From IMG/VR virus record IMGVR_UViG_3300035670_000379, positions 1 to 45,996 of that record: a stretch of 45,996 nt of DNA; one strand, given 5' to 3'. The first letter of the stretch is position 1; each line of letters begins with the position of its first letter. Shown in pieces: positions 3,101-45,996 of this stretch. Both the position numbers and the translations under genes were made by a program. The notes beneath the pieces are model-generated. The model saw only the letters and a list, made by a program, of their open reading frames with translations. It was not told the origin of the DNA and did no database searches. Origin of the DNA: a virus.

Positions 3101-4272
3101 TGAATCGCTCCGCACGCCAGACGGTGGAGACCCCGATCAGTGCAGACGCGGGCCTGAACCGCATGCTGTCCTCGATCCGCGGGCGCACGGGCATGGCGCT
3201 CATGTTCGCCAACCTGAGCAACACGCTGCAGCAGATCACCGGCGTGAGCTCGGCCGCGATCAAGGTCAAGCCCAGCCTGATGATGCGCTCGCTGGCCGAC
3301 TACGTGGCCAACCCGAAGAAGTTCTCCCAGGCCGTGTGGGACGCCTCGCCCTACATGGCCGACCGCGCCAGCAACGAGGTGGCGGTGCTCTCGGACACGC
3401 TGGAGAAGATCCTCATCAACCCGAGCGTGTACGAGCGCACCGAGAGCTTCACGCGCCAGCACGCCTACTTCCTGCAGACGGCGTTTGACAACGTGCTCTC
3501 GCCCATCATCTGGCAGGCCGCCTACAACCAGGGCCTGGCCGAGGGGATGGAAGAGCGCATGGCCATCCGCTACGCCGACGGCGTGATCCGCCAGACCCAG
3601 GGCTCGACCCTGCCCGAGGACGTGAGCCGCATCGAGACGGGCCCGGCCTACGCGCGCGTCTTCACGCAGTTTGTGGGCTACTTCAACATGCTGGCCAACA
3701 CCAACGCCACGGCACTGAAGCAGATCGCCCAGGAGCAGGGGCTCAAGAAGGGCGCCGGCAAGGCGTTCGGCGTGTTGATGCTGGGGCTGATGATCCCGAT
3801 CTGGGTGGCTGAGGCGATCGCGCTCGCGTTCAAGGGTGGGCCCGACGACGAGGACGACGACGGTTACCTGGACGACTGGTTGGCCCAGGTGTTCGGGTTC
3901 GGCACGATCAAGGGCGTGCTCTCGGGCATCCCGTTCGTGGGCGCACTCGGCCAGTCGGTGGTCAACCGCTTCAACGACCAGCCGGCCGACGACAAGTTCT
4001 CGCTCTCGCCCACGGTGTCGGTGCTCGAGTCCGCGGCCGGCGCCCCGGCCAGCGTTTACAAGGCGATCGTCGACGACGCGAGCGCGCAGAAGGCCGTGCG
4101 CGACGTGGCCGCGCTCATCACCGTCACCACCGGCCTGCCGGCCATGACCCTGGCCCGACCCGTGGGCTACGCCGCCGGCGTCGCGCAGGGCAAGATCGAG
4201 CCCACCGGCCCCGTCGACGCTGCGCGCGGCCTGGTGACCGGCACCGCGAGCCCCGAGTCCAAGCAGCGATAG
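1..4272 (+). CDS. Giant internal virion protein, C-terminal part, with zinc-metallopeptidase motif
   Basis: The frame is open from base 1 and is the continuation of the gene starting at 42450; joined across the circular overlap the product is about 2,563 aa. The ATG at 19 is internal, not the start. A zincin-type HELGH motif at 343-357 (about residues 1255-1259 of the joined protein) is followed by an E-rich segment (AESFEQYL) that could give the third zinc ligand. A long Ala/Glu/Lys-rich, probably helical stretch covers roughly 780-1800. The last third (about 2740-4200) resembles the conserved C-terminal module of large polyvalent phage proteins (LPD38-type), with a hydrophobic membrane-like helix near 3757-3825 and an acidic DDEDDD run after it. 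Its place after gp13/14/15-like genes suggests the T7 gp16 role: an ejected core protein that crosses the envelope. The peptidase activity is inferred from the motif only. Confidence 0.85.
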   Translation, partial: TIADDKMGVVPKGFKVSQNKTSPWVDAEGVNRGRYDEILNQYGRRADAADVAPAGLADAGGLLQQRPADAGRAEPADGAAGTDTGVLEQGPLGTFNPRTLELVLNPNSDLTTFFHELGHFFLEVQADIASQPDAPPMIVEDMAKILAWFGVPDLATWNGYTLEQKRPYHERLAESFEQYLMEGKAPSVELQPVFRRIRAWFLNAYKSIQKFLSDRGMVEGSPMQLNDDIRRVMDRMLATDEQIQQANEVAGLVPDEQADGEAAERLQKRSMADLKWAVKARDKVIAKLKKEAREVEKATRAEVTAEVDASPEMRAQAALDALTVDVEYDGKLAEWKAARKAAETAAKDEISTAMLEAEVAKTGEPLAGLKKGQFLAKVRSEVANKVDARMIEWDRANRKPSKAQYATDADVAAVADSFGYETVDAMLQAIDAFGSRTEAIDALTERRMLEENGDLIDERAIQEAANEAVHNEARTRSLATELRTQQEMLGQRTDTGQVNARGARITVNALIEAAKQFGANVVARTSLRDLKATAWKHTAAERRAGKRWQEHTAKGETADAVKAKQDQVLNNAAAKAALDATAEAKKILEFFKRVTKGNDEKVVEKGRDPDIVNAARAVLAAYGIETPTTKAAAAYLEALQQNDPETAAVVGPMILQATQNAQPLEALTFEELQGLHESIQAMWFLAKRSRQMEVDGDLMDIDDAANELYTRMEEIGIPDTVPGESGALTKAELIKRAVLQQAPALLRRVEQWAEAKDGKFGGPFLRLIFQPIKDAADRYRAERLEYRKKFQALVDNIAPMMPTQPIEAPELGYTFGRGHNGIGMAELLHAILHTGNESNKRKLLLGRGWATENPDGTLDTSRWDAFIQRLANSGVLQREHFDFAQGVWDLLEQTKPLAQKTHRDVFGRYFAEVTADTFTDPFGVARRGGYVPAQADPLLVQDAELRDLLETENAGMSYAFPSTNRGFTKSRVEYNRPLKLDLRSLPQHIDKVLLFSHMEAPVRSAARLIKRPKVSQPLGRIDPAAISGVLKPWLNRSARQTVETPISADAGLNRMLSSIRGRTGMALMFANLSNTLQQITGVSSAAIKVKPSLMMRSLADYVANPKKFSQAVWDASPYMADRASNEVAVLSDTLEKILINPSVYERTESFTRQHAYFLQTAFDNVLSPIIWQAAYNQGLAEGMEERMAIRYADGVIRQTQGSTLPEDVSRIETGPAYARVFTQFVGYFNMLANTNATALKQIAQEQGLKKGAGKAFGVLMLGLMIPIWVAEAIALAFKGGPDDEDDDGYLDDWLAQVFGFGTIKGVLSGIPFVGALGQSVVNRFNDQPADDKFSLSPTVSVLESAAGAPASVYKAIVDDASAQKAVRDVAALITVTTGLPAMTLARPVGYAAGVAQGKIEPTGPVDAARGLVTGTASPESKQR

Positions 4273-4273
4273 C

Positions 4274-4305
4274 GTGTCCTTAGGCGCTATAGCAGCGCCT
4301 ACCAT
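4274..4305 (+). promoter_or_regulatory. Phage promoter-like element before the tail fibre
   Basis: GTGTCCTTA, 17 bases, then TACCAT. It matches the repeated GTGTCCGTC-N17-TANNAT element of this phage. The predicted transcription start near 4312 lies downstream of the in-frame TTG at 4309 and upstream of the GGAG and ATG at 4333, which supports 4333 as the true start. Confidence 0.65.
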
Positions 4306-9448: not shown

Positions 9449-10405
9449 ATGGCGTACTACAGACGGCTGAAAACAGGCTGGAGAGCCCAGGTCGAGAAGG
9501 CCGGCGTGCGCAAGTCTCGCGTGTTCGATCTCAAGGCCGACGCGGTGAGCTGGGCCACCAAGCTCGAGGCCGAGATCGAGGCCCAGGCGCACACCGGCCT
9601 AGCCTCTGACACGCTCACCTTCCACGCCCTGCTCGATCGCTTCCAGCGCGACGAGTGTCCCAAGCGCAAGGGCCAGGATACCGAGGTCAAGCGCCTGGAG
9701 TATCTCAAGCGGCAGATCGCTGACGTGCCCTTGCGTGAGGTCAACGCCACGCTGATCGCCAAGTGGCGCGACCAGCGCATGGCCTCGGTCAAGCCGGCCA
9801 CGGTGCGGCGCGAGATGGCGCTGCTGCGCACGATCCTGGACGTGGCGCGCCGGGAGTGGCGGCTGTTTGCGGTGAACCCCATGGCCGACGTGCGCAAGCC
9901 GCCGGCACCGGCCCCGCGCACCAGGCTCATCACTCAGGAAGAGATCGACGCCGTGGTGAAGGCGCTGAACTACCGCGAGGACATGCCGGTGGTGCAGGCC
10001 AAGCAGCAGGTGGCGGTGATGTTCCTGATCGCCATCGAGACCGGCATGCGCGCCGGCGAGATCGGGCGCGCGGTGATCAAGGGCCGGGTGGCGCACCTGG
10101 CCACCAGCAAGAACTCCGACGCGCGCGAGGTGCCGCTGTCAAAGCGGGCGGTGGAGCTGTACGCCAAGCTGCCCGAAGGGTTCGACCTGGCCGACGGGAC
10201 ACGGGACGGGTCGTTTCGCACGGCGCGCGAAAAAGCGGGGCTGTCAGGCTTCACGTTCCACGACAGCCGGGCCGTGGCGCTGACGAGGCTGTCGAAGAAG
10301 CTCAACGTGATGGAGCTGGCGCGGATGATCGGCCACCGCGACCCGCGCAGCCTGATGATCTACTACCGGCAGGCGGCCGAAGACATCGCCGCCAAGCTGG
10401 ACTAG
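9449..10405 (+). CDS. int: Tyrosine recombinase integrase
   Basis: A 318-aa site-specific recombinase for insertion of the phage into the host chromosome. The N-terminal arm/core-binding part (MAYYRRLKTGWRAQVEK) is followed by the catalytic domain with Arg201 in TGMRAGEI, His271 and Arg274 in HDSR, His296 in GHRD and the tyrosine nucleophile at 305 or 306 (IYYRQ). Start ATG 9449 is chosen because the upstream extension is made of the ATCCCGCA repeats. It is convergent with the excisionase-like gene; their stop codons overlap in CTAG. Confidence 0.95.
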   Translation: MAYYRRLKTGWRAQVEKAGVRKSRVFDLKADAVSWATKLEAEIEAQAHTGLASDTLTFHALLDRFQRDECPKRKGQDTEVKRLEYLKRQIADVPLREVNATLIAKWRDQRMASVKPATVRREMALLRTILDVARREWRLFAVNPMADVRKPPAPAPRTRLITQEEIDAVVKALNYREDMPVVQAKQQVAVMFLIAIETGMRAGEIGRAVIKGRVAHLATSKNSDAREVPLSKRAVELYAKLPEGFDLADGTRDGSFRTAREKAGLSGFTFHDSRAVALTRLSKKLNVMELARMIGHRDPRSLMIYYRQAAEDIAAKLD

Positions 10406-11993: not shown

Positions 11994-12265
11994 GCTTGCA
12001 CCTCCGCTTTGGCATCAATCGGAACAATGACGGTCTTGTGTGTTTTGGCGCATTCGGAGCAGATCACGGCCCAGTCGCCGAGGTAGTCCAGTCGCATGCC
12101 GTACTTTTGATTGAACTCGGGCTTGTCGTACTGGTCTTTGCCAGCCTGTCTGTACGGCGAGAGGTCCTTGTGCCACGCGTCGGTGCCGTCCCCGTAATTG
12201 AGGTGGGCGTCGTAGAACGCCTTGCCTTCGCAGACGTCGCAAAGTCGGTAGTCAGCGAGTGCCAT
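11990..12265 (-). CDS. Small protein with two CxxC pairs (91 aa)
   Basis: MALADYRLCDVCEGKAFYD...WAVICSECAKTHK. Two CxxC motifs, at residues ~9-12 and near the C-terminus, suggest a zinc-ribbon-like fold. The start at 12265 is supported by AAGGAG seven bases upstream, one of the strongest ribosome sites in this operon. Function unknown. Confidence 0.65.
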   Translation of the reverse strand: MALADYRLCDVCEGKAFYDAHLNYGDGTDAWHKDLSPYRQAGKDQYDKPEFNQKYGMRLDYLGDWAVICSECAKTHKTVIVPIDAKAEVQA

Positions 12266-12494
12266 GTTGTTCTCCTTCGGCTTTGACGATGGCGGCGTTG
12301 ATCTCGTGCTCCGGCTGCTCCAGCGCGGCGCGGAGGGCTTCCTCAAGCTGAAACACTGGCGCATGCGCGAGAGTCATAGCCTCTCGGGTCACCTTGTTCA
12401 CCTTGTTGCCGAACGGCGGCACAGCCATCCATCGGCGCTTGAACTCTTGAACATGCGCCAGCGCCTGCTGGGCGGCGGTTCTCAGATCAGTCAT
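12252..12494 (-). CDS. Small protein with LRTAAQQAL module (80 aa)
   Basis: MTDLRTAAQQALAHVQEFKRRW... followed by LEEALRAALEQPEHEI. It is paralogous to the 64-aa protein at 11192 at the N-terminus and to the 120-aa protein in the AALEQPE segment, with long identical DNA stretches. The start overlaps the helicase stop (ATGA). Function unknown. Confidence 0.6.
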   Translation of the reverse strand: MTDLRTAAQQALAHVQEFKRRWMAVPPFGNKVNKVTREAMTLAHAPVFQLEEALRAALEQPEHEINAAIVKAEGEQHGTR

Positions 12495-14838: not shown

Positions 14839-16629
14839 CTAGACCAGCCCGCCGGCCGCGCCGACGTCGCTCAGGATCGACAGCGCCTCGCGCTCGTACC
14901 AGGCGTGATCCACATCCGAGGGCACCGCCTCGGGCAGCTCCATCAGCGGGCGTGCGCCCTCGCTGCGCGGCACCGTGTAGTTGTTGACCTGGTAGCGCAG
15001 GGCGCCGGCCACGCCGCGGGCGTAGTACCACCTGACCGTCTTGCCCAGGTACTGGCCGCCCTGGTCGACGGCGCCACCCTTGACGGTGCGCACAGTCACC
15101 AGCTTGCGCACATCGCTGCAGGCGCGGACGGTGTCCTCCACCGGCGTGCCGTCACGCAGCCAGCGCACCGCGGCCTCGATGGCCACGCCGTTCACCGGGT
15201 TCTTGGCCAGCGACTCCTGCGCGTAGGCGCCCTTCAACTTCACGCCGCCGTCGGGCTTGATGGCGATGTAGTTGTTGACGTCCCTGGAGTACAGCGCCCG
15301 GTAGCGGGTCTCCTCGGTGTCGAACCCGGTGCGCCGCTCCCAGCGCTGGACGACCTCGCCCATGGCGCCGAGGTCACCGCGGTGGCAGCGGATCACGATG
15401 CCGTCGGTGTTGGCGCTCACCACGCGGACGCCATCGGCCTCGAGGTCCTCGATCAGCATCAGCAGCGCGAGCTGGCCGGTGACGGTGGTCTGGATCAGCA
15501 GGTCTGGCGAGTAGAGCTTCGACCACTTCGAGCCCAGCTTGCCGAAGGACCCGTTGATCGTGATCTTGAGCGCGTCGGCGGTCACCTTGTCGCCTGCAGC
15601 CTTGGCCGCCAGGCGCCGCTCGACGATGCCCTTGTAGGCCTGCAGGAAGGCTGGGCCCATGGCGCGGGGCGCGAGACCCAGGCGCAGGATGATGCTGGGG
15701 TAGTAGCTGGCCACGTCACGGTCCACCAGCACGTAGTCCTCATCGGCCTCCACCGCCTGGCAGGTCTCGCTCGAGTGCAGGCCGCCGATGCCCAGGCGGT
15801 ACACGCCGCGGCCGATCGTGACCGTCTGCCCAGCCAGGGCCTCGGGCTCGGCCACGCCGCCGCTGTCTTGCACGATGAAGTCGGCGGCCTCGATCTCGGC
15901 CAGCTTGTCGCAGAGCTCGAGCGATCGGAACTGCACCCAGCGCGGGGCGCGGTAGTGGTACGACGTGCCGGGCTCGATCGCCTCGCGGATGATGGGCTTG
16001 CCCGTGAGCTTGACGACCTGGTGCGCCAGCACCGCCTCGGCGATCTGCGCGTCGGACTTCGAGCGCAGGTCGATGTCGTACTCGGCGGACATCTTCTCGC
16101 GCAGCTCGAGCTGGGGCTTGAGCTTGCGGTAGAGCGTGTCCGTCGTGATCAGGTCGTTCCGACAATACGTCCTCAGGCGGACGCGATCGGCAGGGGCGAT
16201 GCTTTGCCTGTGGTCGATCGGCAGGTCCTGCAGCCGCGGGCAATGCAGCCGGCCGCCGTAGGTCTTGAGGCTGGCGATGCCGGGCGCCACCTCGATCAGG
16301 TCGATGTGGTCCACGCGCGGCAGCTTCAGGCCCCAGAGCTGCTCGAACTGCCAGCCCTTGTAGCTGCGGCTGATGATGGCCTGCGCCGCCTTGTGGATGC
16401 GCTCGCAGTCGCCTCCGGCCAGGGCCACGGCGATGATCGGGAGGTCGAAGTTCGCGCTGTTGAACCCGACCAGGGTGCGGCCGCGCAGGTTCGCCTTCAG
16501 CGCCTCCACGTCCAGCACCTGGTCCGGGTGCGCCTCGATCTCGGTCACGATGCCCGTCGCGGGGTCGAGGAAGGCCGCGAGGAAGTAGTCGCGGTAGACC
16601 TCGGTGTCGAAGATGGCGATGGGCTTCAT
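14839..16629 (-). CDS. Family B-like DNA polymerase with 3'-5' exonuclease
   Basis: A 596-aa replicative polymerase. Exonuclease motifs: FDTE (Asp8, Glu10), GFNSANFDLP and YCRNDLITTD. Polymerase motif A is DVASYYPSI with Asp305; motif B is KITINGSFG from Lys355; motif C is SANTDG with Asp409. Motif C has Asn407 where most family B enzymes carry Asp (DTDS), and Gly for Ser; this may be a clade feature. The protein is short for the family, as in other small phage polymerases. It lies between the SSB-like gene and the leftward small-gene operon. Confidence 0.9.
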   Translation of the reverse strand: MKPIAIFDTEVYRDYFLAAFLDPATGIVTEIEAHPDQVLDVEALKANLRGRTLVGFNSANFDLPIIAVALAGGDCERIHKAAQAIISRSYKGWQFEQLWGLKLPRVDHIDLIEVAPGIASLKTYGGRLHCPRLQDLPIDHRQSIAPADRVRLRTYCRNDLITTDTLYRKLKPQLELREKMSAEYDIDLRSKSDAQIAEAVLAHQVVKLTGKPIIREAIEPGTSYHYRAPRWVQFRSLELCDKLAEIEAADFIVQDSGGVAEPEALAGQTVTIGRGVYRLGIGGLHSSETCQAVEADEDYVLVDRDVASYYPSIILRLGLAPRAMGPAFLQAYKGIVERRLAAKAAGDKVTADALKITINGSFGKLGSKWSKLYSPDLLIQTTVTGQLALLMLIEDLEADGVRVVSANTDGIVIRCHRGDLGAMGEVVQRWERRTGFDTEETRYRALYSRDVNNYIAIKPDGGVKLKGAYAQESLAKNPVNGVAIEAAVRWLRDGTPVEDTVRACSDVRKLVTVRTVKGGAVDQGGQYLGKTVRWYYARGVAGALRYQVNNYTVPRSEGARPLMELPEAVPSDVDHAWYEREALSILSDVGAAGGLV

Positions 16630-16631
16630 GC

Positions 16632-16662
16632 GTGTCCGTCAGCAGAGGAGCCGGCGCACAAT
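16632..16662 (+). promoter_or_regulatory. Phage promoter-like element facing against the polymerase operon
   Basis: GTGTCCGTC (16632-16640), 16 bases, CACAAT (16657-16662). It matches the late-type element of this phage but points rightward in a region where all genes point left. Its only downstream feature before the terminator is a short transcript. Confidence 0.55.
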
Positions 16663-16668
16663 GGCCTC

Positions 16669-16720
16669 GTCTCCTCTCTGTTGCAGAGATTCAGCCCGCC
16701 ACCCGGCGGGCTTTCTTTTT
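16669..16720 (+). ncRNA. Candidate small RNA (~50 nt) between DNA polymerase and SSB genes
   Basis: The RNA would start about seven bases after the CACAAT box, contain a CTCTG-TTG-CAGAG hairpin (16676-16688) and end in a strong intrinsic terminator. It fits exactly in the 92-base gap between two leftward genes. An ATG overlaps the -10 but the frame it opens runs antisense through the SSB gene and looks non-coding. Function unknown. Confidence 0.5.
16693..16720 (+). terminator. Intrinsic terminator on the plus strand
   Basis: Eight-pair stem AGCCCGCC/GGCGGGCT with an ACCC loop, followed by TTCTTTTT. The T run is only on the plus strand, so it ends a rightward transcript, matching the promoter at 16632. 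Confidence 0.85.
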
Positions 16721-16721
16721 G

Positions 16722-17276
16722 TCAGACCAGGTCCTCGACCTCGAGCTCGTCGAACTCATCCGCCGCGGCCGGGCGGCCACCGCCGAAGGCCTCGCCGTCG
16801 CACACGAACTGGATACCTCTCAGCGTGCAGTTGATGCGCTTGCCGTAGGCGTTGTCCTGGGCCCAGACCTCGACGCTGGCGTTGACGTAGCAGCCGGCGT
16901 AGAGGCGGCCGTCGCGCTCGGTGAGCGGGTTGCGCTGGCCGTCGACCACGGTGGGCCGGGTCTTCGAGCGGGCGGCGACGAACATCATCCCGGCGAACCC
17001 GTCGTAGTCGGGCTTTTCATCGCCGTCGCGCAGGCACACCTTGCCGGTGGAGCGCAGGGCCTTCAACTGGGCGTCGGCCTTGGCGCCCCACTTCTCGCGG
17101 GCCACGGTGGCCAGCACCTTGTCGAGGCCGTCGGCCTGGGCCTGGTCCATGATCAGGGTGGCCTGGTAGCTGGGCTCGCCCTCGCCGTAGGCGCTGGGCT
17201 CGAACAGGGAGGGGAAGGCCAGGCGCACGTTCTTGAGCATCACGCGGCCGGCGGGGGAGGTGTTGTTGGTAGCCAT
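16722..17276 (-). CDS. DUF2815 single-stranded DNA-binding-like protein
   Basis: A 184-aa protein (MATNNTSPAGRVMLKNVRLAFPSLFEP...) of the DUF2815 family, related in fold to T7 gp2.5-type SSBs. The body is OB-fold-like with aromatic beta strands; the C-terminus is a strongly acidic tail (ADEFDELEVEDLV) as in SSB partner-binding tails. AAAGGA precedes the ATG by eight bases. It sits directly upstream of the DNA polymerase and downstream of a nuclease, consistent with a replication/recombination unit. Confidence 0.88.
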   Translation of the reverse strand: MATNNTSPAGRVMLKNVRLAFPSLFEPSAYGEGEPSYQATLIMDQAQADGLDKVLATVAREKWGAKADAQLKALRSTGKVCLRDGDEKPDYDGFAGMMFVAARSKTRPTVVDGQRNPLTERDGRLYAGCYVNASVEVWAQDNAYGKRINCTLRGIQFVCDGEAFGGGRPAAADEFDELEVEDLV

Positions 17277-19036: not shown

Positions 19037-19306
19037 TTAGGCCGGCAGCTCGGCCTGTCCGATGGCCAGGGCGCGCTCGCACTGCTTGACCAGCGCGCGA
19101 TAGGCGCGGCGCTCATCGGGCAGCAGGTCGGGGCCGTCGGGGTCGAGCATGAAGCGGCAGTCGTCGAGGATCTCCTGCAGCGTCTCGGGTGTGACGTGCA
19201 GGAAGCCCGGCGCGAACATGCGATCGGCCAGGGCCGGGACCACGTCGCCAATGCAGCGGACGTTCCACTCGTTGGCGATTGAGGGAGTGATGCGCAGGAT
19301 GTGCAT
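19037..19306 (-). CDS. Hypothetical early protein (89 aa)
   Basis: MHILRITPSIANEWNVRCIGD... with a C-terminal helical segment (DERRAYRALVKQCERALAIGQ). AGGAG lies nine bases before the ATG. No recognised domain. It and the next gene precede the operator at 18996-19013. Confidence 0.65.
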   Translation of the reverse strand: MHILRITPSIANEWNVRCIGDVVPALADRMFAPGFLHVTPETLQEILDDCRFMLDPDGPDLLPDERRAYRALVKQCERALAIGQAELPA

Positions 19307-20790: not shown

Positions 20791-22782
20791 ATGAACGCCG
20801 TGACCAAGCTCAACGCGCATCTCACGACCATCACCTGCCCCGACGAGCTGCGCGAGCTGCCGGCCTGGCTCATCTGGCGCTACGAGCACCACGAGGGGGA
20901 GGGCAAGCCGCGCAAGGTGCCGTACTACACCAACGGCCAGCGCCGCCACGGCGTGCAGGGCCGGGCCGAGGACCGCCAGCAGCTCACCACGTTCGACGCG
21001 GCCCGTGCCGCGGCCGCGCGGCGGGGCTTTGACGGCGTGGGCTTTGCGCCCATGCCTGAGTTCAACGTCTGCGCGCTCGACTTCGACCGCTGCGTGCAGG
21101 GCGGCGAGATCCACCCGCAGGTGCTCGAGGTGCTGGGCTCGACCTACGCCGAGTACTCGCCCAGCGGGCTGGGCATCCGCGCCTTCTTCCGCGGCAACCT
21201 GGGCAACCTCAAGGACCACGGCAAGCCGTTCGGGTTCGAGACCTTTTCCTCCAAGGGCTTTGTCACCATCACCGGCAATGCGCTCGAGATCACCCGGGTG
21301 CTGGGCAACGAGAACAGCGTGGCCGAGGTCGACGACACGGTGCTCACCCTGGTGCGCCGTCGCTTCGCCCGGGCCAGCGAGCCCGAGACCGACGCCACCA
21401 CCGCCGAGCGGCTGGGCCTGACGCGATCGCAGCTCGAGGAGGCGCTCGACGCGCTGCCCGGCGACCTGGGCTACGACCAGTGGATCAGCGTCGGCATGGC
21501 GCTGCACCACGAGCTCGGGCCCGAGGGGTTCCAGGTCTGGGACGAGTGGTCCCGGCGCAGCCCGAAGTACACCACCGAGCGCTACGGCCGCGAGCGCTGG
21601 CGCAGCTTCGGCAAGGGCGGCGGGCGCCAGGTCACGGCCCGATCGCTGGTGCGCCTGGCGCACGAACACGGCGCGCACATCACCATCGGAGGCCCGGCCA
21701 GCGTGGAGGAGTTCGAGGCGCTGGTGGAGCAGGGCCAGGCTGCCGAGCCTGACGCTGCGGGCGAGCCCAAGCCGCTGCGCTTTCAGTTCGAGCCGGTAGC
21801 CACCTTCGCCAGCGCCACGGCCTCGCCCTGGATCATCAAGGGCGTGCTGCCCCAGGCCGGCCTGGCGGTGGTCTACGGCGCCAGCGGCAGCGGCAAGAGC
21901 TTCGCCGTGCTGGACATGGCCCTGGCCATCGCCCAGGGGCGCTCCTGGCGCGATCGCAAGGTGCGGCAGGGCAGGGTGGCCTACATCGCCGCCGAGGGCG
22001 CTGACGGCTTCAGGAAGCGCCTGGCGGCCTATGCCCAGCACCACCAGGTGGACCTCACGGCCGTGCCGATGTCGGTGCTCAACGGCGCGCCCAACCTGCT
22101 CGAGGTCAAGGACGCCGCCGACCTGGTGCTGGGCATGCAGGCCTGGGGCGGGGCGGACGTGATCGTGGTCGACACCCTGGCCCAGACCACGCCCGGCGCC
22201 AACGAGAACGCAGGCGAGGACATGGGCCGGGCCATCGCCCACTGCCGGCGCATTCACGAGAAGACCGGCGCGCTGGTGATCCTGATCCACCACAGCGGCA
22301 AGGACCAGGCCAAGGGCGCCCGTGGCTGGTCAGGCCTGCGCGCCGCGGCCGATGCCGAGATCGAGGTCATCCGCGCCGAGGACGGCCAGCGCTCCTTGCG
22401 CCTGTCCAAGAACAAGGACGGCGAGGACGGGCTGCAGTGGGGCTTCAAGCTCGAGACGGTGCAGCTCGGCATCGACGAGGACCTGGACCCCATCACCTCC
22501 TGCGTGGTGGCCGAGGCCGAGCTCAAGGCGGCCAATGGCGGCAAGCCGATGGGCCCCGTGGAGACCGTGGTGCACGCGGTGGTGATGGAGATGGCCCAGG
22601 CGCAAAGCTCGGGGCTCGAGGTGGGGCCTGTGATTGCGGAAGCCGTAAAGCGCTTGCCTGGGCCTGAGGACGGCAAGCGCGACACGCGTCGGCAGCGCGT
22701 CAGGCGCGCAATCGAAACACTCAGCGCCGGCGATCAGGCGCCGTTCTGGCTGCAGGACGACGGCACCCTCGAGGTGGTCTAG
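20791..22782 (+). CDS. Primase-helicase replication protein
   Basis: A 663-aa two-domain protein. The N-terminal ~200 residues resemble primase-polymerase (PrimPol/AEP) domains: ALDFD with Asp97 and Asp99, then [14 protein letters not shown] linker with a Toprim-adjacent [14 protein letters not shown] segment (PriCT-2-like) follows. The C-terminal RepA/AAA_25 ATPase has Walker A GASGSGKS (Lys369), [17 protein letters not shown] and [11 protein letters not shown]. It would prime and unwind at the phage origin for the polymerase encoded at 14839. It ends in a CTAG overlap with the convergent HNH gene. Confidence 0.88.
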
Positions 22783-23363
22783 TCGACATGCTTCCAGGTC
22801 TCACGTTTCACGATATACGCCGCGGCGCGGTACTTGATGCCGTAGTCGACGGCGACGTCCTCGAGCCGTTCGCCGTTGGCGTGTCGCGATCGCACTTCTC
22901 GCACCAGCTCGGGCGTCAACTTGGCACCCGGCGTGCCCTTGCAAACAGGCGTGGCCCGGTGCTCGGTCGTCAGCCGACGGATGTAAGAGCTCGTCACGTC
23001 AAAGACAAACGCCAGCGCTTCAGGTCGATGGCCTTCACGCGCCAGGCTTCGGATGTTGTCCACATCCTCGAGCGTGAGCTTGCTGCAGCGCTTGTTGCGG
23101 GCCTGCGTGAAGCGATCGGCCCATCGGCAGTTCTGCGGCGAGTACGGGCCGTTGACGTCGATTCGGTCGAGCGACATGCCATCGGGCCTGGCGCCCATGT
23201 CGTGCACGAAAGCATCGAAGCTGTTGGCCCACCGGTCGCAGACCTCAATCCCGCGGCCGCCGTAGTGGCGGAAGTCCTTGGAGTCGGGGTCGAGACAACG
23301 CTGTCGCAACGAGTTCCATGTGTTGAACAGCGTGAAGAGGTCGCGTGCGGAGAGGTTTTGCAT
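22779..23363 (-). CDS. HNH homing-type endonuclease with C-terminal HTH
   Basis: A 194-aa protein. The HNH-type core reads [12 protein letters not shown]...[12 protein letters not shown]...[15 protein letters not shown]...CRWAD..TQARNKR (residues ~15-92), and a C-terminal part has two HTH-like segments ([23 protein letters not shown] and [28 protein letters not shown]). It is the only leftward gene in this rightward region and carries its own promoter-like element six bases before its ATG, consistent with an autonomous mobile gene. About 40% of core residues are visibly shared with the protein at 26044. Confidence 0.85.
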
Positions 23364-23401: not shown

Positions 23402-23546
23402 GATGCGTTGCACAAAACCATGCAACGCGGCTGCAACACGCGTTGCATCGCACGTTGACGCGTTGCGAAGAGCCGAAATTTACAACGCAACGCACCGCCA
23501 GCCTATAGGCGGCGGTGTTGCGTTGTATCGGATCGGGCGTTGTTGC
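23385..23546. repeat. GTTGC/GCAAC repeat cluster, possible origin or regulatory array
   Basis: At least nine GTTGC or GCAAC pentamers lie in about 160 bases (for example 23385, 23407, 23422, 23433, 23442, 23462, 23487, 23517, 23542), several extended to CGTTGCA(T). This is far denser than chance. It fills the 211-base non-coding gap between the HNH gene and the small HTH gene and could be an iteron array, protein-binding array or packaging-related site. Confidence 0.6.
23482..23526. repeat. Large imperfect inverted repeat
   Basis: The left arm ACAACGCAAC..ACCGCC (23482-23499) pairs with the right arm ending GTTGCGTTGT (to 23526), with a two-base bulge and a central loop containing CCTATAGG. 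It would form a ~16-pair hairpin. It lacks a T tail, so a simple terminator is unlikely. Confidence 0.7.
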
Positions 23547-23574: not shown

Positions 23575-23829
23575 ATGGTCGGCGTGCTGAAATTAGCGAA
23601 GAACCGGATGGTTGCTGTAAACGACGCGCGACGTCGGATCGGCGAGCAGCACCCTCGCGCCGTGCTGTCAGACCACGAGGTCGAGCTGGTGCACGAGCTC
23701 CACGAGCTGGGCATGGCCTTGGCCGAGATCGCCCGCAAGATGGAGGTGTCGAAAGGCTGCGTCTGGAAGATCGTGCACGGCTACCGCCGCGGTCAGGTGC
23801 CGGCCGGCTGGGTCCGTGTCCGTGATTGA
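23575..23829 (+). CDS. Small HTH protein upstream of terminase
   Basis: An 84-aa basic protein with a resolvase-type HTH (LSDHEVELVHELHELGMALAEIARKMEVSKGCVWKIV) and a basic tail. GAAAGGA lies about eight bases before ATG 23575. It resembles the C-terminal HTH of the neighbouring HNH protein, so it could be a detached homing-endonuclease DNA-binding domain. Its place at the head of the late region also makes it a candidate activator of the GTGTCCGTC promoters. One such promoter lies over its stop codon. Confidence 0.7.
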   Translation: MVGVLKLAKNRMVAVNDARRRIGEQHPRAVLSDHEVELVHELHELGMALAEIARKMEVSKGCVWKIVHGYRRGQVPAGWVRVRD

Positions 23830-25715: not shown

Positions 25716-25720
25716 GCGGC

Positions 25721-25752
25721 GTGTCCGTCTGATCTGCGGACTTCCGCAGAAT
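25721..25752 (+). promoter_or_regulatory. Phage promoter-like element after terminase
   Basis: GTGTCCGTC (25721-25729), 17 bases, CAGAAT (25747-25752), eight bases to ATG 25761. The spacer also contains the hairpin CTGCGGACTTCCGCAG. Confidence 0.6.
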
Positions 25753-25997: not shown

Positions 25998-26005
25998 GTA
26001 AAGGC

Positions 26006-26037
26006 GTGTCCGTCAACGCATGTCCTGTCCTAACAAT
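26006..26037 (+). promoter_or_regulatory. Phage promoter-like element before the second HNH gene
   Basis: GTGTCCGTC (26006-26014), 16-17 bases, TAACAAT-like box ending at 26037, six bases to ATG 26044. Confidence 0.6.
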
Positions 26038-45400: not shown

Positions 45401-45996
45401 GGTGACCGGGCGCTGGGACACGCTGGTGCTCGACCGCGTGCAGTTCACGCATTTGTGGGGCGACCAGTACCGCGAGCGCGCCGGCCAGCGCAACATCTAC
45501 GACAACGGACTGGCTGCGGCCGGCGAGGGTCACTTCGGACTGGCCGTGTACGAAGCCCTGGCTCGCGGCATGAGCCAGTCGGTGCGACGCGGCTACGAGC
45601 TGGCGGGACTGACAGGGCAGGGCGATGGCACCCTCGGTGCCTTCCATTGGGACTCGTGGCTGATCGAGTCGTCGCAGGCCATTGGCCACCCAACGATCGA
45701 GGCACTCGACACCGAGACGCCACGCCCCGATCTGGCCGTGCGCCAGGGCAAGTTCGACACTTACAGCTACAACTTCGAGTACCGGGCCGACGGCCAGTAC
45801 CAGATCCCCCTGCTGGACGGCAGCGGCTACCGCCTCATGTCGCCCGCAGAGGCAGCGGAGTTCGCCAATACCATAGCAGATGATAAAATGGGCGTAGTGC
45901 CCAAGGGCTTCAAGGTCTCGCAAAACAAGACGAGCCCCTGGGTCGACGCCGAAGGAGTGAACCGTGGCCGATACGACGAAATCCTCAACCAGTACG
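42450..45996 (+). CDS. Giant internal virion protein, N-terminal part
   Basis: The start ATG overlaps the previous stop (ATGA) and the frame stays open to the window end. It continues at base 1 through the 127-base overlap (unique part 42450-45869 = 1,140 aa, then 1,423 aa), total about 2,563 aa. Residues ~200-250 hold hydrophobic Gly-rich helices (AAGIYGGAESFLRAIPGVAASVAM...). A ParB-like GRHR motif sits at 677-680 (VGFGNGRHRFAYM). The region ~740-1100 is a conserved-looking globular segment (KNYDKLDAIFAKV..., GRWDTLVLDRVQFTHLWG). No transglycosylase motif as in T7 gp16 was found. It would be ejected with the DNA; the exact role is unknown. Confidence 0.85.
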   Translation, partial: MSWQNDPITPPAPSSAPAAPWANDPIVGPTPRQVLSTAVTIKPDAMAEAERLAKRYPAPAEVIVQDLEAYRLQEVLDLSDSDLQKAPMLRELMRRDVKVAAMAQDDTARLVDLEKRVRTFGELKPWNGPEPTTLSVVTGLAKSIPQAAGAIKAGLQMQMGDALEALGLVKRDPVYLADQQRKLAQAMGASDFTRPNFESSTAAGIYGGAESFLRAIPGVAASVAMRSPTPAMIAIGGQTQAEAYGKYRARGGTPGEAFAGATGEALVEIATEYLPGKYLAESLGKTGAKEFILNLVKKDVLGEQAATILQDAIDTAIANPDKTWEQYLAERPDAAYQTLVATLTQAGLMSGVNTVVRRVAEMGDKSVEAQATADALQQAMAGAEASLLRQRSPEQFRSLMSEMSQDGSIYIDAEVLNQMPPELLQQMPGVVEALPEALAANSSVEVKLADALTVLPGTPQAEVFMQNARSAPDAPTLVESQEAGAKAQEFLQQEFQRVVQQASDQEAVRQSREVVKQSILGELNAAGRQQVKVNDIKAGLAADYFAVMGSKMGMTAEEFYQRYRLRVLGQATGQGEVLNAPGAQSRVTLAGRDIPITLGQRDAQAGFRLVDVDTAAFDAAFLAGDRNTGGFYIGPGGTGATIGDRYQRFGEFASTAKSIEAPTVTVKPDGTVGFGNGRHRFAYMRDNGVAQIPVAMDEESYANAVAAGLVAQEQVFNQTPGALPLWSLERAKGARVTDAIKKAAIALSPTAKQARKNYDKLDAIFAKVPDPLASEEAWRKFMSFLVADRDVLGVPYNALKYAQSPEAVAEYLSRLRPDQLASRRAGFELGAKIRQEYLEGRATPVTTGRLLLWAMLSRKAGAYPHEAAYMDLVNGGVDQWIEKAVNGTWTEADSEGYVKWSSEFMASKKGGVSPSAGVTSNANDFGRILLTKMSSKDENGETSLTRLHNLIANPDVSTDQVRREFFALGDSLGIQNKVLSFALLVTGRWDTLVLDRVQFTHLWGDQYRERAGQRNIYDNGLAAAGEGHFGLAVYEALARGMSQSVRRGYELAGLTGQGDGTLGAFHWDSWLIESSQAIGHPTIEALDTETPRPDLAVRQGKFDTYSYNFEYRADGQYQIPLLDGSGYRLMSPAEAAEFANTIADDKMGVVPKGFKVSQNKTSPWVDAEGVNRGRYDEILNQY
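45870..45996. repeat. Terminal direct repeat, right copy
   Basis: Exact copy of bases 1-127; see the left copy. It should be counted once in the circular genome. Confidence 0.95.

Follow-up and report, generated by a model that had tools for sequence, protein, structure and literature searches.

The short gap between the SSB and DNA polymerase genes of this phage very probably contains a real small RNA (sRNA) gene of the RF02278 family type, a judgement that we base on sequence. Our explanation as a whole, which we consider probable, is that the phage has adopted an RF02278-like sRNA gene, that this gene is read from one of the phage's late-class promoters and that its product would block translation starts. 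The record analysed, hereafter the window, is the 45,996-bp viral record G000 (IMGVR_UViG_3300035670_000379). Its 127-bp ends are identical (1-127 and 45870-45996), pointing to a circular or terminally repeated assembly.

The gap (16630-16721, 92 nt) separates the SSB stop from the pol start within a leftward operon of exonuclease, SSB and DNA polymerase genes. The SSB is a 69% match to Bordetella phage BPP-1, and the surrounding gene order is alike. Terminase, portal and later genes are read rightward, starting at about 23.6 kb; by analogy with such phages, we label leftward genes as early and rightward genes as late. An integrase gene (9449-10405, plus strand) has no counterpart among the related contigs examined, and the lineage of the window may be temperate, the other phages being incomplete or different. 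Plus-strand open reading frames of 647 and 227 aa that span the gap lie antisense to pol and SSB and were omitted by the gene-calling pass. The preliminary description had placed a promoter, a small hairpin and an intrinsic terminator on the plus strand of these 92 bases, opposite to the leftward SSB and pol, and this layout, including both the hairpin and a terminator with a T run on the plus strand only, is what we observe:

14839 to 16629, minus strand: DNA polymerase gene (pol), start ATG at 16629; phrog_1252, E 1e-185.
16722 to 17276, minus strand: SSB gene (Enc34/Gp2.5-like), start ATG at 17276, stop at 16722-16724.
16630 to 16640, plus strand: late-type promoter box GCGTGTCCGTC (-35 region), the same box as at late promoters of the phage and its relatives.
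16657 to 16662, plus strand: -10 element CACAAT, 19 nt after GTGTCC and 6 nt before the GTCTCC of the RNA.
16668 to 16720, plus strand: sRNA gene, RF02278/S17-like, about 52 nt, supported by Rfam, by a 36-locus model and by its fold.
16669 to 16676, plus strand: anti-Shine-Dalgarno seed GUCUCCUC (Site 1 of S17), invariant in the 36-locus alignment.
16675 to 16689, plus strand: first hairpin, 6 bp with loop UUG, seen in the fold; bacterial copies are all longer.
16693 to 16720, plus strand: intrinsic terminator, stem 16693-16712 followed by a T-rich tail, found by terminator scan and fold.

The gap sequence resembles a known RNA family. Rfam at its gathering threshold gave no match anywhere in the window. 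In E-value mode, the gap stretch aligned at 16668-16719 with RF02278 (Betaproteobacteria toxic small RNA, or double-hairpin RNA) over the full model (1-64 of 64); both stems fold, and the Rfam alignment flags two pairs on each side of hairpin 1 as non-standard or deleted. The score of 41.2 bits falls below the gathering cut-off of 50, but over the whole genome it corresponds to an E-value of 1.3e-8 against 14.1 bits for the next match, and unrelated stretches of these phages reach 10-18 bits. A model built from 36 bacterial loci, with the window excluded, gave the gap 47.9 bits as the sole match in 358 kb of the phage and its relatives; bacterial copies score 41-75 bits under the same model. 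Since the loci of this model were chosen by words shared with the window, the Rfam score is the cleaner test. The word pair GTCTCCTC...GATTYAGCCCG occurs at at least 120 loci in bacterial genomes. It is almost confined to Burkholderiales and other Betaproteobacteria, its carriers being nearly all Burkholderia, Massilia, Janthinobacterium, Collimonas, Bordetella, Roseateles and similar. Like RF02278 RNAs, the gap RNA has a CU-rich seed at its 5' end, the first six bases of which are unpaired in the fold. The distance from the end of the -10 element to GTCTCC is 6 nt at 62 bacterial loci and 7 nt at 43, and it is 6 nt in the window.

The predicted structure agrees with this assignment. The 52-nt RNA folds into two hairpins at -23.2 kcal/mol, compared with -11.2 for shuffled sequences (z -5.0). 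The terminator has an 8-bp stem, 7 pairs of which are G-C, and the tail TTTCTTTTTG. Its stem is the longest among 8 terminator-like sites in 18 kb, and since that count is no more than chance (7.3 expected), the terminator is credible through its stem and the Rfam match. The proposal that the gap encodes a discrete RNA of about 50 nt, read from a phage promoter and ended by an intrinsic terminator, gains strong support from the full-length family match. The identity of the RNA, its seed, its terminator and its promoter boxes all find support in the sequence.

The promoter boxes tie the RNA to the phage itself. The 11-mer GCGTGTCCGTC has five copies on the plus strand (16134, 16630, 25719, 26004 and 28467) and appeared in none of 100 third-order Markov simulations. 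The promoter class of this phage group has the form GCGTGTCCGT-N18-nAnnAT, its spacing being fixed, and related phages carry the two boxes at orthologous late positions: before the tail gene, after terminase and after the portal gene. The sites in the window and a candidate regulator are as follows:

4272 to 4305, plus strand: late promoter before the tail gene, at a site orthologous to that in relatives.
25719 to 25752, plus strand: late promoter after terminase, two-box match.
26004 to 26037, plus strand: late promoter, with the orthologous site in the related contig G006.
28467 to 28500, plus strand: late promoter after the portal gene, two-box match.
23575 to 23829, plus strand: 84-aa HTH protein, candidate late activator, with weak PHROG and Pfam HTH matches.

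The 84-aa protein is encoded upstream of terminase, is 63-88% identical in relatives and may be the activator of this promoter class. On the minus strand, an HNH endonuclease gene (22779-23363) is closely preceded by a further match to the class, CGTGTCCGTC ... CAGAAT at 23403, which points leftward. When all viral contigs were scanned for one exact form (TACCAT) at spacing 20, it was found in 20 contigs, of which nine or more are relatives; the same form at spacing 19, scanned for as a control, turned up in six viral contigs, none recognised as relatives. Together with the orthologous late positions, these scans indicate that the late-type promoter is a real class. The pattern TTCATGCGTGTCCGT occurred in 22 contigs, pol or SSB in none of them. 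No sigma-70 type promoter was called in the gap. The gap copy has the GCGTGTCCGT box and an nAnnAT -10 element; its GTGTCC-to--10 distance is 19 nt, against 20 nt in the late promoter copies of relatives, and its strength is therefore uncertain. The earlier claim of a late-type promoter is thus borne out, as both boxes belong to the phage's late family, with the refinement that the spacing is one base shorter. From these boxes, we lean slightly towards placing the sRNA under phage late-type control.

The same promoter class provides the alternative that survives best. It had been argued that the short RNA is the only candidate for a transcript ending at the terminator; this no longer stands, as pol itself contains another promoter match of equal quality:

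16134 to 16166, plus strand: GCGTGTCCGT ... GACAAT, spacing 19, antisense to pol.

The terminator might then mainly end a longer antisense transcript, initiated here or by read-through from late genes, and the short RNA might be its processed 3' end. If the 16134 site were active, a transcript of about 550 nt would carry the sRNA at its 3' end, as S17L carries S17S, and its function could be antisense shut-off of pol, with SSB and exonuclease protected from antisense reading. This site scores like the late promoters, and its -10 element is formed by the only TAT among the 25 Tyr codons of pol; TAT is likewise unique at the same codon in three relatives (L039, L040 and L042). In Bordetella, RNase E generates S17S from S17L (PMC11722255), and the stretch from 10.4 to 16.7 kb yielded no other strong plus-strand terminator. 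However, synonymous conservation around 16134 is ordinary, two relatives (L041 and L045) have TAC, and the gap has a promoter of its own at a host-like distance from the RNA start. We regard the longer transcript as an unlikely main role of the terminator.

Comparison with bacterial members shows what the phage RNA has kept. The seed-to-GATT span is 11 nt in the window versus 15-22 nt in 125 bacterial loci, and the second CU-rich stretch, located in the loop of the first hairpin at 111 of these 125 loci, is absent. The phage RNA has therefore lost Site 2 while retaining Site 1 and the terminator. Of positions 2-28, identical in Bordetella S17, only the Site 1 part is retained; given this and the score below the Rfam cut-off, the RNA is best called RF02278-like rather than a member. 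With the B. cenocepacia RNAs of RF02278 (ncS03, ncS05, ncS27, ncS62; bdhR1), it shares the 5' GUCUCCUC, a hairpin and GAUUC, as well as the AGCCCG terminator, the length and the -10 distance. It differs from them in its sub-cut-off score, in its short first hairpin without the CU-rich loop and in being located in a phage genome, behind a phage-type promoter box and antisense to a phage gene. The Site 1 seed and the terminator are shared with Bordetella S17 (S17S) as well, and action at ribosome binding sites would be expected of both RNAs (PMC11722255). The fully conserved 27-nt region of S17, however, is not intact in the phage RNA, for want of Site 2, and S17S is processed from a longer RNA, whereas the phage RNA has a direct promoter.

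Close relatives, the polymerases of which are 83-92% identical, do not share this RNA: the 36-locus model detected it in none of them within the 358 kb searched, and conservation of the gap in close relatives was not found. Conservation of the hairpin in related phages, proposed earlier as a check, is thus absent. Instead, five relative loci have a different structured element with compensatory changes in the SSB-pol gap, and L043 has no gap, so the gap is a variable site. The other element (L001:4915-5148, L003:5588-5767, L039:4824-5000 and L044:4778-5000) is about 170-230 nt long and apparently pseudoknotted, its helices GTCGCRCC/GGYGCGAC and CCCCRGCAT/ATGCYGGGG crossing each other. Eight pairs are changed on both sides, in five sequences only, two of them nearly identical, and the element matched no Rfam family. 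A search with pol for prophage relatives in bacterial genomes found none.

A variable site could also harbour a decayed piece of host DNA, an RNA gene gained by recombination that has since lost its function. Absence from relatives, the shortened first hairpin and the lost CU-rich loop would fit such decay. On the other hand, the RNA gene has kept its seed, both stems, its terminator and the -10 distance, and the box upstream corresponds to that of the phage's own promoters, an agreement that decay would not produce; we therefore consider decay improbable. Far less credible is the idea that the hairpins serve the leftward SSB-pol mRNA alone, stabilising it between the two cistrons or controlling translation, and that the plus-strand resemblance is incidental. 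In its favour, this gap holds a covarying structured element in relatives, and the minus strand of the gap also folds well; against it, neither the T run nor the family match exists on the minus strand, and the relatives' element is not in the window. Chance resemblance of a terminator and promoter-like words to RF02278, which the sub-threshold score and the background of 10-18 bits might suggest, can practically be dismissed in view of an E-value of about 1e-8 with two models and a promoter word never seen in the simulations.

RNAs of the RF02278/S17 type occur in other viral contigs too. The words GTCTCCTC and GATTYAGCCCG were found in seven viral contigs, all of them full-length model matches of 45-65 bits, with RF02278/S17-type sRNAs at these positions:

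L118:780, L116:1683, L119:8909 and L120:2321: near terminase large-subunit genes, which belong to different families (L118 taken with L116).
L114:10064, L115:1665 and L117:1770: similar records, flanks less clearly viral.

To judge from three other lineages that bear terminase genes, phages seem to have come to carry the family on several occasions. Among the contigs seen, only the window combines the sRNA with a phage late-type box; a search of other viral contigs for the promoter box followed by GTCTCCTC gave five matches, the sRNA in none. BLAST of the 60-nt region against phages returned mostly terminator-side matches, none covering 80%. Against isolated phages, the sRNA regions of L114 and L118 had no match, and that of L120 had only short partial matches, to Bordetella avium phages.

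How might such an RNA act? We propose that a rightward RNA would start at about 16668/16669 from the GCGTGTCCGT box and CACAAT promoter and end at about 16720 at the terminator, presenting in order 5'-GUCUCCUC, the small hairpin, GAUUC and the terminator. It would be a divergent phage-borne relative of RF02278/double-hairpin/S17 RNAs, with a gene that probably came from a host and became linked to a phage promoter box. Its 5' end would pair with GAGGAGAC-like Shine-Dalgarno sequences and block translation initiation, probably with Hfq; the time of expression, the part of Hfq and the targets we infer. Family RNAs of B. cenocepacia contain reverse complements of ribosome binding sites, and over-expression of ncS27 slows growth (PMC5688073); growth inhibition on over-expression is reported for RF02278 family members (PMC5688073, PMC4603805). 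Bordetella S17 is Hfq-dependent, and most of its listed targets pair via Site 1 near ribosome binding sites (PMC11722255). On this ground, predicted action on ribosome binding sites is a likely mode for the phage RNA as well.

Proposed targets in trans would be host mRNAs and early phage mRNAs. GGAGAC-type sites occur at some leftward genes (e.g. 19037-19306 and 12252-12494). Seed matches to start regions differ between early (leftward) and late (rightward) genes only weakly (P 0.014), and shuffled seeds equalled the real seed in 36 of 200 cases, the real seed being no better overall; trans targets within the phage are therefore only a suggestion. The proposed target in cis lies opposite the RNA:

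16626 to 16677, minus strand: polymerase leader, with AGAGGAG at 16677-16671 and a possible 11-codon TTG ORF at 16661-16626.

The RNA is perfectly complementary to this leader, including AGAGGAG ahead of the 11-codon ORF, the TGA of which overlaps the pol ATG, so that the two may be translationally coupled. Pairing here would act as a late brake on polymerase synthesis. As read from this complementarity, the leader is a tentative candidate for the physiological target, and we would not call it probable. Shielding of the polymerase operon from antisense reading, suggested earlier, is a possible secondary effect.

Short phage RNAs acting on host or phage mRNAs are known, including lambda PreS, VpdS, DicF, sar and the OOP antisense RNAs, as described in the review PMC12197685; their sequences are unrelated to the gap RNA. 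In the passages of that review consulted, no phage-encoded sRNA is said to be related to a core sRNA family of a host. The literature that we found on RF02278/S17 describes chromosomal copies, with no mention of a phage copy. RF02278/S17 sRNAs are widespread in Burkholderia-type bacteria, and an sRNA resembling this host family, apparently under the virus's own late switch, suggests that the virus took over a host control RNA. In its fullest form, which is speculative and rather doubtful, a host anti-Shine-Dalgarno sRNA was adopted under a late promoter and antisense to the pol leader, one 52-nt RNA both stops polymerase production and silences host mRNAs at a late stage of infection, and the family was acquired several times by phages of Burkholderia-type bacteria. 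Such an RNA would tie host translation silencing to the control of phage replication. The phage version, a natural stripped-down variant with Site 1 only, would help to test which part of the RNA matters, and the case shows that Rfam matches below threshold deserve attention when they fall in phage gaps. If several unrelated phage lineages do carry copies, viruses would appear to exploit the RF02278/S17 regulator.
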